Positions 51,466 through 60,433 of a DNA stretch of 64,000 nucleotides are shown here, piece by piece. The notes under the pieces are model-generated. The model was given only the letters and a program-made list of their open reading frames with translations, ran no database searches and was not told where the DNA came from. The DNA comes from Anaerococcus sp. Marseille-Q5996. GTDB taxonomy: Bacteria > Bacillota > Clostridia > Tissierellales > Peptoniphilaceae. Each line of letters starts with the position of its first letter. Within the stretch, counting starts at the first letter, position 1. The position numbers and the translations under genes are program-made. Where the stretch lies: contig NZ_CAMPPE010000005.1 of the NCBI RefSeq assembly GCF_946893725.1, positions 1-64,000 of the forward strand, read 5' to 3'.

Positions 51466-52830
51466 CTATCTAAAACACTCATCAATTACTTGTCTTATAT
51501 TTGATTTCTGCAATACCCTTATACCAGAAAATTCATTTTCATCAACAGAATTTCTTGCTACAAAGCACTTTTTATAGCCCAAACGCTCTAATTCTTTTAT
51601 GCGCTGTTTAATTTGTGGTACTTTTTTAAGCTCTCCAGTAAGGCCAACTTCTGCAATAAAAACGGTTTTGTCATCTATGGGCTTTTTTAAAAGAGAAGAT
51701 GCGATAGACATCATAATGGCAAGGTTTACTGATGGCTCTGACAATTTTAGGCCACCTGTAGTTTTTATAATTACATTGTAATCAAATAAATTTAGACCAG
51801 CACGCTCTTGTAAGATTGAAATCAAGGTGTTTAGGTCATCTTTTCTTAGCGAATCCCCAATCCTTTGCGGATATGGCAAAAATGATTTGCTGACTAAGGA
51901 CTCGATTTCTACTTCCAATAGCCTGGAGCCTTCCTTAGTAACAGATATGGCTGACCCTTCAATTTCATTTTCACGAGCTGTTATAAAATACTCACTAGGA
52001 TTAGAAATCTCTATCAAACCATCTTCAGTCATAGAAAATAAGCCGATTTCACCGGTGCGGCCAAATCTGTTTTTTGTAGAAGTTAAGACCCTTAGGTCCT
52101 CATCACTTTCTCCATCTAAAACTAAAACTGTATCTACCAAGTGTTCCAAAGTACGAAGTCCTGCCATTTCGTTGGCCTTGGTCATGTGCCCTATCATAAT
52201 TATTGCGCGTTTTTTATGCTCATCTTTGGCAATTTCTACTGCCTTGTTGGCTACCTCTATGGTTTGAGTTGGGCTTCCAGCCTTATTATCAAACTCTGCT
52301 AGGGTAAAAGTTTGGATAGAGTCAAGAAAAACTACATCCGCATCTATGTTTTTAATCTCACTAACGGCACTATCCATAGAGTTTGTAGAAAGAATCCATA
52401 CATTTTCAGGTAAGCTTTCCATTATCCTATCTGCACGGGATTTGATCTGGCTTTCTGATTCTTCTCCAGAAACATAAAGAACTTTTAAACCCTCATCTGC
52501 ATAGGCCTTTGATAATTGGAGCAAGAGTGTAGATTTTCCTGCACCCGGGCGGGCAGTTAGGATTGTGACACTATCACGGACTAGTCCCCCTCCAACTGCA
52601 CGGTCAAATTCTTCAAAGCTTGACTTTATTCTTTCAGATTCGTTAATTTCAATAGTATTTAGTTTTTTTGCAGCCTTGTCATCAACAACTACACTTGCGT
52701 TTTTTTTGCTTTCCTTAACTGTTACTTCAATCAAAGACCCCCACTTACCGCACTCTGGACATTTGCCTGCCCAAAGGGGTTGGGTGTGACCGCAATTGTT
52801 GCATTCAAAGGCTTTTTTTATTTTTGCCAC
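51466..52830 (-). CDS. radA: DNA repair protein RadA (Sms)
   Basis: A 454-residue RecA-like helicase that helps process recombination intermediates. The N-terminal zinc finger is CNNC...CPEC (Cys10, 13, 24, 27), Walker A is RPGAGKST, the RadA-specific KNRFG motif is present, and the C-terminal Lon-like domain is complete. Its ATG shares one base with the stop of the gshA-type gene. In many Firmicutes radA follows clpC; here it is separate. Confidence 0.96.
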   Translation of the reverse strand: MAKIKKAFECNNCGHTQPLWAGKCPECGKWGSLIEVTVKESKKNASVVVDDKAAKKLNTIEINESERIKSSFEEFDRAVGGGLVRDSVTILTARPGAGKSTLLLQLSKAYADEGLKVLYVSGEESESQIKSRADRIMESLPENVWILSTNSMDSAVSEIKNIDADVVFLDSIQTFTLAEFDNKAGSPTQTIEVANKAVEIAKDEHKKRAIIMIGHMTKANEMAGLRTLEHLVDTVLVLDGESDEDLRVLTSTKNRFGRTGEIGLFSMTEDGLIEISNPSEYFITARENEIEGSAISVTKEGSRLLEVEIESLVSKSFLPYPQRIGDSLRKDDLNTLISILQERAGLNLFDYNVIIKTTGGLKLSEPSVNLAIMMSIASSLLKKPIDDKTVFIAEVGLTGELKKVPQIKQRIKELERLGYKKCFVARNSVDENEFSGIRVLQKSNIRQVIDECFR

Positions 52831-54116
52831 TAATTTTCCTTTATAAATTTATTTACTGAGAAATTGTAGATTGCTTTTTGTGGATCTTTCTTGTACAAGG
52901 ATTCATATATATCGCGAGGTTTTTCATCTCTTTTTAAAAGCTCTTCTAAAGGTTTTATATATTCATAATCTTCTTCTATCATGCCAGTAATTTGTAGCAT
53001 CCATTCAGATATTTTCTTGTTCTTATATATGGTATTTATCCCTTGCATTACTGCCTTATCTTTTAGTTTTTGTGATTTTTCATAGGTCATATCAGAGAAT
53101 AATTGGTATAAAAATCCAAATATCTCCTCATCATAGAACATATTTTTGATAAGGGCAACTGCTGCAAAATTGTATGGATATGGAACATTATCAGGCATTC
53201 TTACTTCTATATATTGTTTGGTCCTAACATCTGGAAAAACTATAGAAAGGGCATGATATACCATATCCTTACTCATATCTTGATTAAAGATTTCTTCGAA
53301 AGGAGTATCTCCTGTATAAATATCTTTTCCATCTTTATGGATAAATATACTATCAGTAGCTAAGATTTTTTCTGCATATTTTCTGTATGATAGGTCATCA
53401 TCAAACGCAAAAGAATAAGTACCTGTACGTGGTTTGTCGCAATTTTCCCAAATGGTTTGGCGGAGGTTATGCTTAGCATAAACCTCTCCCTCAAAGATAT
53501 AAGAATTGTCAAAGGTACTGTATAAAAATGTAGAAACTGCATTGGCAACAAAGAATTTTTTCTTAAAATCTTCCTCATCCTTAAAGTCAATTGCCACTTG
53601 GAGGCTTCCAGATCCTTGCATCATATTTAATGGCATAGTTCCCCCAAATTCTCTAAAATATTTGGACATATATTTATAACGTTCTTTAGGAATAAAAGGC
53701 AGATCTGCAATTTTTGACTTTGGTTGATAACCTAGTTCAGCTAGGAGTTGATTTTTCTTATCAAAAATAGGAACAATCTCTCCCATAACTTTTTTATAAT
53801 TATCAAAAAGCTCATCCATAGTTTTTTCAGCCCCAAAGGCAACTTCAAATTGGGCTGCAGGTTCTATAGAAACAGCAAAGCCATCACCAGAAAGTCCCAT
53901 AATATTTTCGCCCTCGTATGTACCCTCATAGCCAAGTTTTTCAATCTCCATTAGAGAATCACGGACTCCACCATCTTCTCCATAAGTGATAGTTTCCATA
54001 GTTTCTGCATCTATAGCAAAGTGCTCCACCTCAAAACCAACTTTGAAATTATCCTCACTTTTCTCTCCAGATTTTATATAATCAACAATTGCATCAATTT
54101 TTTTATCGTAGTTCAT
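52830..54116 (-). CDS. gshA: Glutamate-cysteine ligase (GCS2 type)
   Basis: A 428-residue ligase making gamma-glutamylcysteine. The N-terminal KVGFEVEHFAID, the acidic SGDGFAVSIEPAAQFEVAF and GSGSLQVAIDF segments match the GCS2/plant-type family. No glutathione synthetase domain follows and none is encoded nearby, so the product may be used directly or finished elsewhere. SD GAGGGTG. Coupled to radA by TAATG. Confidence 0.88.
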   Translation of the reverse strand: MNYDKKIDAIVDYIKSGEKSEDNFKVGFEVEHFAIDAETMETITYGEDGGVRDSLMEIEKLGYEGTYEGENIMGLSGDGFAVSIEPAAQFEVAFGAEKTMDELFDNYKKVMGEIVPIFDKKNQLLAELGYQPKSKIADLPFIPKERYKYMSKYFREFGGTMPLNMMQGSGSLQVAIDFKDEEDFKKKFFVANAVSTFLYSTFDNSYIFEGEVYAKHNLRQTIWENCDKPRTGTYSFAFDDDLSYRKYAEKILATDSIFIHKDGKDIYTGDTPFEEIFNQDMSKDMVYHALSIVFPDVRTKQYIEVRMPDNVPYPYNFAAVALIKNMFYDEEIFGFLYQLFSDMTYEKSQKLKDKAVMQGINTIYKNKKISEWMLQITGMIEEDYEYIKPLEELLKRDEKPRDIYESLYKKDPQKAIYNFSVNKFIKEN

Positions 54117-54710: not shown

Positions 54711-55331
54711 CTAAAAATCCCCAAAGTCAACATCAAATCTATCATCTCCCTTGTGGATAATAGCGCCTTTGTTATCTATTGCTATTAGCTGTAGGCTGTC
54801 TTTATGGGCCTTGTGGATTTTTTCTGCGGCTTCTTTAAATGGCTCCTCACCCCAGTGTGGAAGGGGGTAAAATTCTACTAAATTTAGGGCTTTTGTTGAT
54901 TTTAATTCTGGTGCAGCTTTTGGGTCGTCCATGTATTTAATATATGCTATATCAGGACTTGCAATTACTGATCCTGCTGATTCTCCAATATAGACCATAC
55001 CCTCACTTACTTTTTCTTTGATTAATCCTAGTAAATCTTTCTTTTTTAGTTCTTGGAGCAAGTAAAAAGTATTGCCTCCTGATACATATAAAATCTCTGT
55101 ATTTTTTATAATTTCTTTAGCTTGCTCTTCAGAAACCTTACTTACTTCTAGGTCTTTTATTTCAAATCCCTTTGATAAAAAATACTCACGTGCATCATCT
55201 ACATACTGGGTGTATGGTGAAACTTCTGCTGCAGTTGCTATAAATGTTATTTTCTTTGCTTGATATTTTTCAATAAATCTTTCAAATCCATTTTTTGCCC
55301 CGACTAGGGATGATGATAAAAATATGTTCAT
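54711..55331 (-). CDS. Peptidase E-like S51 family protein
   Basis: A 206-residue serine peptidase of the S51 group, related to class I glutamine amidotransferases. The nucleophile elbow is GESAGS (Ser118); GGNTFYLL is the conserved turn before it. Expected to act on N-terminal Asp dipeptides or cyanophycin-like peptides. Cytoplasmic. SD AAGGAGAG. Confidence 0.88.
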   Translation of the reverse strand: MNIFLSSSLVGAKNGFERFIEKYQAKKITFIATAAEVSPYTQYVDDAREYFLSKGFEIKDLEVSKVSEEQAKEIIKNTEILYVSGGNTFYLLQELKKKDLLGLIKEKVSEGMVYIGESAGSVIASPDIAYIKYMDDPKAAPELKSTKALNLVEFYPLPHWGEEPFKEAAEKIHKAHKDSLQLIAIDNKGAIIHKGDDRFDVDFGDF

Positions 55332-55360
55332 TTGCTCTCCTTACTTATATATAGAAATTT

Positions 55361-55789
55361 TCACAACTTTTTCCCGATTTTTTTACCTCTTAGCATAATT
55401 ACAATAAATAAGACCAAAAATAGTCCTGTTAGTATCCATGCAAAAATAGTGCGAGGTATAAAATGCCCTTGCAAGATATATATGGACAAAAGGCAGGATA
55501 GTCCATTTATTATTTTATATAAAGTTCCAAAACTTGTTACCGAAAAGCTATAAATCGTATAAATAATCAGTAGTATGGGATAAAGTATAATGACGTTTCT
55601 AAAAAAATTTACATTGGCTATGTATGACTCATAGTCTATTGTCTGATAAGTTCCTATATAATCTTCAAAGGTTTTTGAGTTTGAAATTGCCCTAGCATGG
55701 ATGATTGTAAATATGATAATTAATATAGATATGCCAAGTATTGCTAGGCTTACTTGTCTTTGATTTTCTATATTTTTTATTTTTTCCAT
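55361..55789 (-). CDS. Small membrane protein, unrecognised
   Basis: A 142-residue protein with four membrane helices (about 13-31, 63-84, 90-108 and 114-133) and a basic C-terminus. No family recognised. It lies between peptidase E and clpC genes, all on the minus strand but not overlapping. Confidence 0.65.
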   Translation of the reverse strand: MEKIKNIENQRQVSLAILGISILIIIFTIIHARAISNSKTFEDYIGTYQTIDYESYIANVNFFRNVIILYPILLIIYTIYSFSVTSFGTLYKIINGLSCLLSIYILQGHFIPRTIFAWILTGLFLVLFIVIMLRGKKIGKKL

Positions 55790-55896: not shown

Positions 55897-58329
55897 TTAT
55901 TCTGCTGTTTCTACTGCTAGGGCTTCCTTTTTTTGACCTGCTACATTTTCAAAATTTAGTTCATCATTTTTTACTGATAGGTGGATTATGGCATCCCTAT
56001 TTAGTTTGTTATCTAGGATATCTTCTGCTAGCCTATCGTCTATCATTTTTGTGATGTGACGTTCTAGTGGCCTTGCCCCGTATTCTTCGTTAAATCCTTC
56101 TTTTGCTAGAAGTTTTACTACTTCGTCATCATAAGTGATGTCGATGTCGATGTTATTTAGTCTTTGTCTGGTTTTTTCTAGCATTAGTTGTGTAATTTCT
56201 TCAATGTTTGCCTCACTTAATGGGTTAAACATGATTACTTCATCTAATCTGTTTAAAAACTCTGGTGCAAAGGCATCTTTTACTTCACGTTCTATGATTT
56301 CACGGGTGCGGTCGGCATTTTTTTCTTCTTGATTGCCTGTTTCAAAACCAATGGCTTGTTTTTCGTTTAGGCTTGATACACCAACGTTACTTGTCATAAT
56401 TATGATTGTATTTTTAAAGTCTACTGTGCGGCCTTGGCCATCTGTTAGTCTACCGTCATCTAGGATTTGTAATAATAAATTGAAAATATCTGGGTGGGCT
56501 TTTTCGATTTCATCAAATAAAATTACTGAATATGGGTGATTTCTCACTTGTTCTGTCAACTGTCCACCTTCTTCATAGCCTACATATCCTGGAGGAGAAC
56601 CTACCAAACGAGATACGGCAAATTTTTCCATATACTCACTCATATCCATACGAATTAGGTGGTCTTCTGACCCAAATATATTTTCAGCCAAAGATTTTGC
56701 TAAGTAAGTTTTACCAACTCCTGTTGGCCCTACAAAGATAAATGATCCGATTGGTTTTGATGGATCTTTTAGTCCAACTCTGGCACGTTTTATGGCGTGG
56801 GCTACTGATTTTATAGCTTCTTCTTGGCCAATTACAGTGCCCTCTAATTGCTTATCAAGGCTTGCGTATTTTTGTTTTTCATCTTCAGTTAATTTTGTAA
56901 CTGGAACTTTTGACCATGATGCAACTATGCTTGCAATGTCATCAAAGCCTATAAATAAGTTTTTCTTATCCTTATTTTTCTTTTCGATTTCTGCTTCGAT
57001 TTCAAATCTGGCTTGGTTGATTTGATCACGTAGTTCTGCAGCTTTTTCAAAGTCTTGGTCTTTTACTGCCTGCTCTTTTTCACGAACTAGGTCATTGATC
57101 TTATCTTCTGGATTAGAATCACTTTCTTCTTCTTGATAGGCCTTGATACGGACCTTACTCATGGCCTCATCTAGGACATCTATAGCCTTATCTGGCAAAA
57201 ATCTATCGTTTATATACCTATCTGTTAGCTCAACTGCAGCATAAATTGCTTCTTCAGTCATTTCTACCCCGTGGTGGGACTCATATTTATCTCTGACACC
57301 CTTGATTATTTTCCTGGTGTCTGATAATGATGGCTCTTCCACTTGGATAGGCTGCATACGACGGGTTAAGGCGCTGTCTTTTTCTATATATTTTCTGTAT
57401 TCTTCTATGGTTGTAGCACCGATTATTTGAATGTCACCCTTGGCAAGGATTGGTTTTAAGATATTTGCAGCATCCATAGATCCTTCTGCTGCTCCTGCTC
57501 CAAGTACCATATGAAATTCGTCGATAAATAGGATTACATCATCTCGGTTTGCTAGCTCATCAAATAGTTTTTTTAGCCTATCTTCAAAGTCCCCACGATA
57601 TTTTGTACCTGCAATCATGCTTGCAAGGTCTAGGCTTAGTATAGTTTTATCCTTAATTATCTTTGGCACTTCGCCTTCTACAATTCTTTGGGCAAGGCCT
57701 TCTGAAATTGCAGTTTTACCTACACCTGGCTCACCAATTAGGATTGGGTTATTTTTTGTCCTACGCATCAATATTTGGATGACGCGTTCTATTTCTACAT
57801 CACGGCCTATTACTGGGTCAATCTTGCCTGTTTTTGCTTCTTCATTTAAATCACGAGCAAATTTTGAAACATTTTCACTAAGTTCATTGGCCGAACCAAC
57901 TACTTCTGGTTGGTCATTTAGTAACTCTTTTAAATTTCTTTTTACAATATCTTTTTCTACTCCCGATAGCAAAAACATGATGTTTGTTAGTGAGTCTTCG
58001 TCTTCAAGGATTGCAAATAATACATTTTCTTCGCCTGCAGAAGATTGGCCGTATTTGTTTGCATTTAGCCTTGCTAGTTCTAAAACCTGTCTTACTTTTT
58101 TGCTATATTCTGTTGCAGGACGCATGGCTTGACCTTTGCCTATATTATTTATTACAACTTGGCGAAGCAAATCATAGTTTGCTCCGGCAGCCTCTAATGC
58201 TTTTGTTGCAACAGAACCTGTTTTCATTAATGCAAGGAGCAAGTGCTCTGTACCGATATAGTCGTGGTTTAGAGAGTAACTTTCGCGCCTTGCCTGTTGG
58301 GTTAATTTATTTAATCTATTAGCTTCCAT
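55897..58329 (-). CDS. clpC: ATP-dependent Clp protease ATP-binding subunit ClpC
   Basis: An 810-residue class I Hsp100 unfoldase that feeds ClpP. N domain (1-140), D1 with Walker A GEPGVGKTA, a UVR middle domain (KEQAVKDQDFEKAAELRDQI), D2 with GPTGVGKTY, and the ClpP-docking IGF loop (KQAIGFETG). In the N domain the first phospho-arginine pocket motif GTEH is kept (Glu28) but the second is changed to GEEN. Its start lies within the mcsB end (19-base overlap, SD AAGGAG). Regulated by CtsR through the operon promoter. Confidence 0.96.
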   Translation of the reverse strand: MEANRLNKLTQQARRESYSLNHDYIGTEHLLLALMKTGSVATKALEAAGANYDLLRQVVINNIGKGQAMRPATEYSKKVRQVLELARLNANKYGQSSAGEENVLFAILEDEDSLTNIMFLLSGVEKDIVKRNLKELLNDQPEVVGSANELSENVSKFARDLNEEAKTGKIDPVIGRDVEIERVIQILMRRTKNNPILIGEPGVGKTAISEGLAQRIVEGEVPKIIKDKTILSLDLASMIAGTKYRGDFEDRLKKLFDELANRDDVILFIDEFHMVLGAGAAEGSMDAANILKPILAKGDIQIIGATTIEEYRKYIEKDSALTRRMQPIQVEEPSLSDTRKIIKGVRDKYESHHGVEMTEEAIYAAVELTDRYINDRFLPDKAIDVLDEAMSKVRIKAYQEEESDSNPEDKINDLVREKEQAVKDQDFEKAAELRDQINQARFEIEAEIEKKNKDKKNLFIGFDDIASIVASWSKVPVTKLTEDEKQKYASLDKQLEGTVIGQEEAIKSVAHAIKRARVGLKDPSKPIGSFIFVGPTGVGKTYLAKSLAENIFGSEDHLIRMDMSEYMEKFAVSRLVGSPPGYVGYEEGGQLTEQVRNHPYSVILFDEIEKAHPDIFNLLLQILDDGRLTDGQGRTVDFKNTIIIMTSNVGVSSLNEKQAIGFETGNQEEKNADRTREIIEREVKDAFAPEFLNRLDEVIMFNPLSEANIEEITQLMLEKTRQRLNNIDIDITYDDEVVKLLAKEGFNEEYGARPLERHITKMIDDRLAEDILDNKLNRDAIIHLSVKNDELNFENVAGQKKEALAVETAE

Positions 58330-59297
58330 TGCCTCTCCTTAATATAAGAGTTCAAAAACTCTGATCTTTCAGGGTCTTTTTTGCCCTTGTACTTATTTTT
58401 TGTCAGATTAAATATTAAATAGTCTAACTCGTTGCTTGTTAAATCAGTATTAAATCCAAGTTTGTTGTATTTTTTAAGCTTAAAAAGCTCATTTGCAATT
58501 GTATTTAAACTGTTTAGCTTTCCTGAGTTTAGAGTATTTAAACTTATTGCTATCTGTTCTATAATCTCATCATCAGAAATATTATTTAATAACTGATAAT
58601 CTCTTCTAAATCTTCTTTCATTTCTTACTAGGGAATCAATATTAGCACTCATTTTTAGGACATAGTCATCCATATCATCACGATAATTTCCAAAATTCTT
58701 CACTAGATAAATGTCATCTACATATTTGTCATAATAGGCTGGAATGTATCTTGTCCCATACATGCCGTGGCTAAGTAAACCTTGTTTGAAACCATAATAT
58801 GATTCCTCAGCATCCACTAGGGCAAATAAAAACATCTTTAGTCTGATTTCAAGACCTGCACCATTATTTCGTCCATCACTAGTCAGATACCCATATTGGG
58901 CCTTAAAGGCAAAATCAAATTTTTCGTCTAATTCTTTTTCGATTTCAATTGCCTTTTTGTAGGCCTTTTTGACATCCATATCAAAGTTGCGGATATTTAT
59001 GGCTATATGGTCACGATCATTGATGGTGATGATGTAATCATCAGCAAAAACCACTGCAATTTGAGCAAGTTTGCTAGTAACATCTTCTGATAGGACCATG
59101 TCATTTATGAGTTTATTTAGGGTATTATCATCTATTTCATTTAACAAAACTAGGTTATCTGGATAAATATCCCTAAACATTTTCACAATCTTTTCGCTAT
59201 CTTCATAGGTAATTGTTGTTGGAAAATCAAAACCCTTTATATTTCTCCTAATAGAAAGATTTGAATTTAGAATGATATCTTTTGAATAATCTATCAA
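58311..59297 (-). CDS. mcsB: McsB-like protein, kinase residues lost (predicted pseudokinase)
   Basis: A 328-residue protein in the mcsB position and alignable with McsB along its length. The protein-arginine-kinase residues are missing. The CPTN loop is DGRN (141-144), NEEDHIRI is NDRDHIAI (93-100), GLRAS is GLEIR (148-152), and YGEGSEA is YGTRYIP (180-186). SSRIRLARN at the N-terminus is NSNLSIRRN. Both substrate-binding glutamates and several ATP-binding arginines are therefore gone. It probably acts as an adaptor or scaffold with McsA and ClpC; this is inference. It overlaps mcsA by 4 bases and clpC by 19. Confidence 0.82.
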   Translation of the reverse strand: MIDYSKDIILNSNLSIRRNIKGFDFPTTITYEDSEKIVKMFRDIYPDNLVLLNEIDDNTLNKLINDMVLSEDVTSKLAQIAVVFADDYIITINDRDHIAINIRNFDMDVKKAYKKAIEIEKELDEKFDFAFKAQYGYLTSDGRNNGAGLEIRLKMFLFALVDAEESYYGFKQGLLSHGMYGTRYIPAYYDKYVDDIYLVKNFGNYRDDMDDYVLKMSANIDSLVRNERRFRRDYQLLNNISDDEIIEQIAISLNTLNSGKLNSLNTIANELFKLKKYNKLGFNTDLTSNELDYLIFNLTKNKYKGKKDPERSEFLNSYIKERQWKLID

Positions 59298-59878
59298 TTT
59301 TTCACCTTCATATTTAAATCATCTAATTGTTCTTTTAAATCAGCAGCTTGTTCATAATCCTCGGTAGCTATTGAGTGGTCTAGCTTTTCTTGGAGGGCCT
59401 TTATCTCAAGTGCCATTTCCTTAAATTCACGGTCTTTTTTTGGTAGCCTACCTGTGTATTTATCATAATTATTATAGGTTTTTAAAACTTTTTGGGTTAG
59501 GCTTTTATTTAGTTTAAAACACTCTTCACAGCCAAATATTCCTTGGCGGATATTTGACTCAAGATTGCCACAATTTGGGCAAGTTTTTTCATTTAAACCT
59601 TCCATATATGAAAATGGTTGGTTATTTTGATTGTATTTATATTCATAATATCCATCGATCATATCATCTAGGGATGGTACAAATTTTTGGATAAGACTTT
59701 CTAAATTTTTGTTATTTAAATTAAGTTTATGAAATCCGTCTTCATTAATATCAGCACTGTCAGTCATGTCTGTGTATGTTTTTAAACAATCATTGCACAA
59801 ATAAAAGTCATGCTCATGTCCATTTACTATAGCCTTGACACTTACAGAAGCATCCTTGCCACATTTTTCACATTTCAT
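59294..59878 (-). CDS. mcsA: McsA, activator of McsB (UVR domain protein)
   Basis: A 194-residue protein. Two zinc-binding CxxC sets are intact: CEKC/CNDC in the N-terminal part and CPNC/CEEC in the middle. The C-terminal UVR motif (LQEKLDHSIATEDYEQAADLKEQL) is present. In other Firmicutes McsA activates McsB kinase; here its partner looks inactive. Two bases separate it from ctsR; SD AAGGAG. Confidence 0.93.
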   Translation of the reverse strand: MKCEKCGKDASVSVKAIVNGHEHDFYLCNDCLKTYTDMTDSADINEDGFHKLNLNNKNLESLIQKFVPSLDDMIDGYYEYKYNQNNQPFSYMEGLNEKTCPNCGNLESNIRQGIFGCEECFKLNKSLTQKVLKTYNNYDKYTGRLPKKDREFKEMALEIKALQEKLDHSIATEDYEQAADLKEQLDDLNMKVKN

Positions 59879-59880
59879 AA

Positions 59881-60342
59881 TTAACTCCTTGCTAAAACAC
59901 TTAATAGAATATTTTTTATGATGTCAGAACGTATACCATTGCGATTTTTGCTATCAACTCCACACAGAGCCTTATCGCTTGTAGCATATTTTGCCATCAA
60001 AAACTCATCCTTGGTAAAGTATTTTTTACTATATAAATCCTTAAACAAGCTATCAGCGTTTGCCTCAGTCATTTGCCTGTTTAGGTTTTTGATTAAATAT
60101 GTTAAATAATTATCTTCTTCTACTATGGTTATGATTTTGATAAAACCATTGCCACCACGTTTACTTTCTATAAGATACCCGTTGTGTGGGGTAAATCTTG
60201 TCGAAAGCACGTAATTTATCTGGCTAGGTGCACAATCAAATTGCATGGCCAAATCATTGCGTCCAATCTCAAGCATCCCATCAGTAGATTCTTCTAGCAT
60301 AGCCTTTAAAAATCTCTCAATATCTGATGTAAGACCTGCCAT
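59881..60342 (-). CDS. ctsR: CtsR heat-shock repressor
   Basis: A 153-residue winged-helix repressor of class III heat-shock genes. The DNA-binding part matches CtsR (NDLAMQFDCAPSQINYVLSTRFTPHNGYLIESKRGGNGFIKI). The wing is RGGNG where most CtsR proteins have RGGGG; this Gly loop is the reported thermosensor. Its own promoter carries CtsR boxes, so it autoregulates. Confidence 0.95.
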   Translation of the reverse strand: MAGLTSDIERFLKAMLEESTDGMLEIGRNDLAMQFDCAPSQINYVLSTRFTPHNGYLIESKRGGNGFIKIITIVEEDNYLTYLIKNLNRQMTEANADSLFKDLYSKKYFTKDEFLMAKYATSDKALCGVDSKNRNGIRSDIIKNILLSVLARS

Positions 60343-60408: not shown

Positions 60409-60433
60409 TCTGACCTTTTGACTATCTCTGACC
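60409..60433 (-). promoter_or_regulatory. CtsR operator
   Basis: GGTCAGA-GAT-AGTCAAA (60417-60433) fits the heptad direct repeat RGTCAAA-NAN-RGTCAAA with one mismatch. A further GGTCAGA follows one base on (60409-60415). It lies directly upstream of the -35 box. Confidence 0.85.

Follow-up and report, generated by a model that had tools for sequence, protein, structure and literature searches.

In the mcsB position of its clpC operon, Anaerococcus sp. Marseille-Q5996 carries a McsB homologue that has almost certainly lost its catalytic activity. The reading that best accounts for the evidence as a whole, held here with fair confidence, is that of a pseudokinase: arginine phosphorylation has been abandoned repeatedly, and the dead McsB has been retained, bound to McsA, to act as a scaffold or adaptor for ClpC. 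On sequence grounds, phospho-arginine tagging by the McsB pathway is gone from the Anaerococcus lineage, because both the ATP and arginine chemistry of McsB and its cognate phosphatase, YwlE, have been lost. Service of the dead protein as a scaffold for ClpC is probable.

The window, that is, the whole stretch of 64,000 nucleotides analysed, contains the operon on its minus strand in the order ctsR-mcsA-mcsB-clpC, with the following features:

55897..58329, minus strand: clpC, AAA+ unfoldase with N-domain and M-domain (UVR), from Pfam and NCBIfam
58311..59297, minus strand: mcsB, McsB homologue of 328 aa with a TTG start, almost certainly catalytically dead, from PDB, NCBIfam and Pfam homology
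58866..58877, minus strand: former CPTN loop, now DGRN, residues 141-144 of McsB, from alignment
59007..59021, minus strand: former NEEDH motif, now NDRDH, residues 93-97 of McsB, with the catalytic Glu replaced by Arg95, from alignment
59294..59878, minus strand: mcsA, with two zinc fingers (four CxxC) and a UVR-like C-terminus
59881..60342, minus strand: ctsR, class III stress repressor, from Pfam CtsR and CtsR_C
60417..60433, minus strand: CtsR operator-like direct repeat GGTCAgAgAtAGTCAAA upstream of ctsR, with one mismatch to RGTCAAANANRGTCAAA

The TTG start of mcsB overlaps the stop of mcsA. The operator-like repeat adjoins a TTGACC...TATAAT promoter just upstream of ctsR. In a control with shuffled sequences, 31 of 100 shuffles matched the operator pattern as often at two or fewer mismatches, which makes the pattern alone weak; GGTCAgAgAtAGTCAAA is considered a candidate CtsR operator because of its placement upstream of ctsR, not because of the pattern itself. 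At the other end of the operon, many relatives have radA 3' of clpC, and Marseille-Q5996 has instead a small putative membrane protein and a peptidase E-like gene (54711-55789, by eye). An open reading frame at 52830-54116 resembles glutamate-cysteine ligase by eye, which is of interest in an anaerobe.

Homology of the protein to McsB spans the kinase and C-terminal domains. PDB protein-arginine kinases are matched at E 7e-15 across residues 6-294, and the NCBIfam McsB models NF053707 and NF002194 at E 3e-25, with scores well under the curated equivalog cut-offs (89 vs 385 bits; 80 vs 500 bits), so that the protein falls outside equivalog membership in both. Against Pfam ATP-gua_Ptrans (PF00217) it scores 61 bits, above the gathering cut-off of 22.4, which makes it a member of the superfamily. 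Gene order and these matches bear out the initial annotation, made from the sequence, which had placed the gene at the mcsB position of a standard ctsR-mcsA-mcsB-clpC operon. The same annotation had named a second canonical McsB in the genome as a finding that would speak against it; McsB is the sole PF00217 match in the 99.75% complete genome, and no second guanidino-kinase homologue was found there. Like B. subtilis and G. stearothermophilus McsB (PDB 6fh1-3, 6tv6, 8wtb/c), to which it is homologous over the residues given and whose place in the operon it shares, the protein retains the last conserved Arg and, in its C-terminal half, a conserved E...R motif; unlike them, it has none of the eight active-site residues, no YwlE partner and scores far under the equivalog cut-offs. 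In the C-terminal phospho-arginine (pArg) pocket, RDxxR(A), the last Arg is invariant among 31 Anaerococcus genomes, and the remaining motif is variable, in canonical proteins too. Structure prediction from four sequences gave a pLDDT of 56 and a pTM of 0.39, too poor for a fold search or inspection of the pocket. Among named records, the closest is A. sp. mt242 at 93%, followed by A. octavius at 84% and A. nagyae at 78%.

The active site was scored at eight positions in Geobacillus-type numbering (R29, R31, E122, R126, C168, R177, R208 and E213), among which R177 and R208 are taken by us to be active-site positions from general phosphagen kinase knowledge. A review names Arg29, Arg31, Arg126, Glu122, Glu213 and Cys168 as active-site residues of Geobacillus McsB (PMC12387690). 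None of the eight is kept in Marseille-Q5996 McsB, the losses being two Glu, the Cys and five Arg, and 17/42 other positions conserved in canonical McsB are retained. When seven lineages were pooled, catalytic sites were kept in 1/56 cases vs 136/294 for other sites (Fisher p 2e-12, for lineages that partly share history). In the aligned columns R29 has become N13, R31 S15, E122 R95, R126 A99, C168 D141 and R177 E150; the R208 column holds H or T and the E213 column T or Y, depending on the alignment. At the level of motifs, SRIRLARN reads SNLSIRRN, NEEDHLR reads NDRDHIA, CPTNxGTGLRAS reads DGRNNGAGLEIR, and the RGxYGEG region reads HGMYGTR. The residue list of the initial annotation, which had the CPTN loop, both key glutamates and several arginines replaced, was right.

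The same kind of degenerate McsB, encoded by an intact open reading frame, occurs in 31/31 Anaerococcus genomes, Marseille-Q5996 included, the other 30 proteins showing 49-93% identity to it. Median pairwise dN/dS (Nei-Gojobori) is 0.12 for mcsB, 0.10 for mcsA, and 0.07 for both ctsR and clpC. Because the protein is common to all these genomes, has 47 invariant residues across them and evolves at this low dN/dS, mcsB of Marseille-Q5996 is neither a sequencing error nor a fresh pseudogene. Within the former active site, some replacement residues are fixed (N13, D94 and R143 in 31/31 genomes, E150 in 30/31) and other replaced positions drift, position 95 being R, S, K or M, position 99 A, S or G, and position 141 D, F, G or N. 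A homologue without catalytic residues that is kept under purifying selection is what the terms pseudokinase and pseudoenzyme describe. The likeness to such proteins in general lies in this combination of lost catalytic residues and selective conservation; the difference is that the fold here is that of a guanidino kinase, and that the loss comes with loss of a phosphatase and remodelling of an activator protein.

The phosphatase in question, YwlE, acts on phospho-arginine and has the P-loop CTGNTCR. Neither the Marseille-Q5996 genome nor Anaerococcus yielded a YwlE-type phosphatase, sought as a CxGNTCR P-loop and as a protein. The operon was then read genus by genus in relatives of the family Peptoniphilaceae (genera coded g1-g39, g1 being Anaerococcus), and three states were found: canonical McsB with YwlE, degenerate McsB without YwlE, and deletion of mcsB with mcsA and clpC kept. 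They are distributed as follows:

Canonical McsB: g2, g3, g8, g10 (Cys lost, rest intact), g17, g18 (slightly altered), g19, g27, g29, g32
Degenerate McsB: g1 (Anaerococcus), g5, g6, g9, g11, g14, g16, g20, g21, g22, g23, g25, g33, g39
mcsB deleted, mcsA abutting clpC: g4, g7, g15, g24, g26, g30, g31, g34, g35

YwlE is present in the canonical-McsB genera, as the variant CIGNTARS in g18, and in g12, where mcsB is unreadable; it was found in no degenerate-McsB or mcsB-deleted genus of the family. Intact McsB and YwlE thus go together in every family genus where both are readable. On a ClpC tree, the split between intact and lost states corresponds to at least five irreversible losses when only well-supported branches are counted, and to seven on the best tree. 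Phylogenetically independent McsB/YwlE pairs are concordant in 4/4 cases (sign test p 0.125, four pairs being too few to reach significance). A survey of Peptoniphilaceae for the same losses and for YwlE had been suggested from the outset; its outcome was a degenerate McsB that recurs across genera, with YwlE found in none of these. The proposal that arginine phosphorylation was abandoned in this lineage receives strong support from the genus-wide loss of the active site, the absence of YwlE and the recurrence of the coupled loss across the family.

Several candidates for YwlE were set aside. Those PF01451 low-molecular-weight phosphatase matches in Anaerococcus that were read carry an ArsC-type P-loop, VCVHNSCRSQ. 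On the evidence of the codons, P-loop pattern matches were rejected in genomes G028 (CHGNTCR with a TGN codon next to it on the 3' side), G095 (CMGNTCS), G297 (CYGNTCS) and G430 (CRGNTCRS), and a match in G206, CEGNTCR, is ambiguous. Variant forms were also seen. At loci L119 (G047) and L045, a YwlE-like phosphatase with the P-loop CIGNTARS, its second Cys changed to Ala, occurs in a genome with a slightly altered McsB (GLKAS, RELYGTN). The McsBs of L140, L229 and L230 have lost the catalytic Cys (to Ser, or to Thr/Ser by alignment) and retain the other catalytic motifs largely intact; they may mark the onset of inactivation or a change that is tolerated.

Beyond the family, 391 genomes of the class Clostridia were surveyed for McsB by PF00217 score. 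Among the matches listed, most McsBs score above 200 bits; lower-scoring McsBs that have lost the active-site motifs occur in families f27, f30, f60, f74, f82, f98 and f99 (loci L213-L241), and McsB inactivation is therefore recurrent in the class. In f82, the YwlE pattern is found in three canonical genomes, is absent in three degenerate ones and is still present in one degenerate genome, G397. In f39, the exact P-loop pattern is missing in two canonical-scoring genomes.

The activator protein McsA offers a view of what the dead McsB may still do. In characterized systems, the second zinc finger of McsA binds the McsB kinase domain (PMC12387690; PMC7235348). Both fingers are present in Marseille-Q5996 McsA as four CxxC motifs, as the initial annotation had stated, and no mcsB-bearing genus tested lacks finger 2, whether its McsB is dead or not. 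Among mcsB-deleted genera it is absent in 7/9, where McsA consists of finger 1 and the UVR tail (loci L122-L135); in g26 and g31, mcsB is deleted yet finger 2 is still present. Loss of finger 2 amounts to about two independent events on the tree. Of the indirect evidence for continued binding of the dead McsB to McsA, this correlation is the strongest, and it hints at such binding. Because finger 1 and the UVR tail alone are kept in those 7/9 genera, the shortened McsA may be a McsB-free partner of ClpC, as its domain composition suggests. McsA of g21 and g22 (L136, L137, L141) has lost finger 1 and kept finger 2, beside very divergent McsBs, and the search recovered no McsA in g8 and g10.

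ClpC is inactive until an adaptor or pArg acts upon it (PMC12583610; PMC13125188). The Phe motif of the M-domain is retained in Anaerococcus ClpC (QDFEKAAELRD), and the second repeat of the N-domain is altered in Marseille-Q5996 (SKK, GEEN). Near the pArg1 site of the N-domain, the Thr and Arg of TPR are kept in 0/13 and His107 in 3/13 members of the Anaerococcus clade, vs 16-17/17 in canonical lineages. Loss of the pArg sites of Anaerococcus ClpC was expected and did not prove to be the case: Glu32 and Glu106 are mostly retained in the clade, only neighbouring columns having changed, and the pArg reader has therefore not vanished. Changes confined to the neighbouring columns are weak support. 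MecA is the other classical adaptor of ClpC. It was found in 0/121 genomes searched, with the positive controls B. subtilis and L. lactis matched. In B. subtilis, the kinase-dead laboratory mutant McsB C167S keeps part of the wild-type McsB effect on MgsR turnover, a kinase-independent, adaptor-like effect (PMC7235348). Marseille-Q5996 McsB resembles this mutant in being, almost certainly, kinase-dead; it differs in that the mutant carries one engineered substitution, and in Anaerococcus the entire active site has been replaced naturally across the genus. The initial suggestion of a kinase-free McsA/McsB adaptor for ClpC would fit the purifying selection, the retention of finger 2 with McsB, the lack of MecA and the behaviour of C167S. 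It is compatible with the abandonment of arginine phosphorylation, and both fit the data.

The proposed course of events may be outlined as follows. A McsB descendant has lost its ATP and arginine chemistry along with the cognate phosphatase YwlE, and the polypeptide has stayed under purifying selection in the clpC operon. The pseudo-McsB would remain bound to McsA through the second zinc finger of the latter, and the complex would activate ClpC or deliver substrates to it. As a next step in sister lineages, mcsB has been deleted, leaving an McsA mostly of finger 1 and UVR tail that presumably serves ClpC alone. A more elaborate version is put forward tentatively: the family gave up protein arginine phosphorylation on at least five occasions, a kinase-free McsA/pseudo-McsB adaptor arose repeatedly with the old cleft rebuilt as a binding surface, and some lineages then deleted mcsB and trimmed McsA of its McsB-binding finger.

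Other explanations draw on parts of the same evidence. The replacement residues fixed in the old active site could mean that the cleft for nucleotide and arginine has been remade, as xRNxGxGxE with R143 and E150 fixed, to suit another ligand or reaction. Such neofunctionalisation is unlikely, since R95, A99 and D141 drift, no new catalytic signature was recognised, and packing of an empty pocket would yield the same pattern. Clean deletion of mcsB in nine genera of the same family and low overall identity to canonical McsB would suit a decaying relic, jobless since phospho-arginine was abandoned, heading for deletion and devoid of present function. However, an open reading frame intact in every Anaerococcus genome, the dN/dS and invariant residues reported above, and an McsA finger 2 kept alongside McsB make this improbable.

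That the protein is still an arginine kinase working by an altered mechanism is very improbable: the operon context and the fold family are retained, but neither catalytic Glu survives, nor do the Cys, the five Arg or the cognate phosphatase, and the ClpC columns near the pArg1 site are altered. No evidence was found for an artefact of annotation or assembly, or for a further, canonical McsB encoded at another locus; with a single PF00217 match in a nearly complete genome and one state shared by 31 genomes that were assembled separately and by three named records, the probability of such an explanation is negligible. The pseudokinase retained as a scaffold for ClpC is thus the reading preferred here.

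McsB has been likened to an E3 ligase that writes phospho-arginine as a degradation signal. No report of a natural pseudo-McsB was found in the literature searched, a search outside which most subscription papers lay. Many anaerobes carry the annotation "protein arginine kinase" in error. Lineages with pseudo-McsB constitute natural kinase-dead experiments that separate the enzymatic from the adaptor role of McsB, a question until now addressed with point mutants, and the graded series of intact, dead and deleted McsB is useful for studying how the control of ClpC is rewired.
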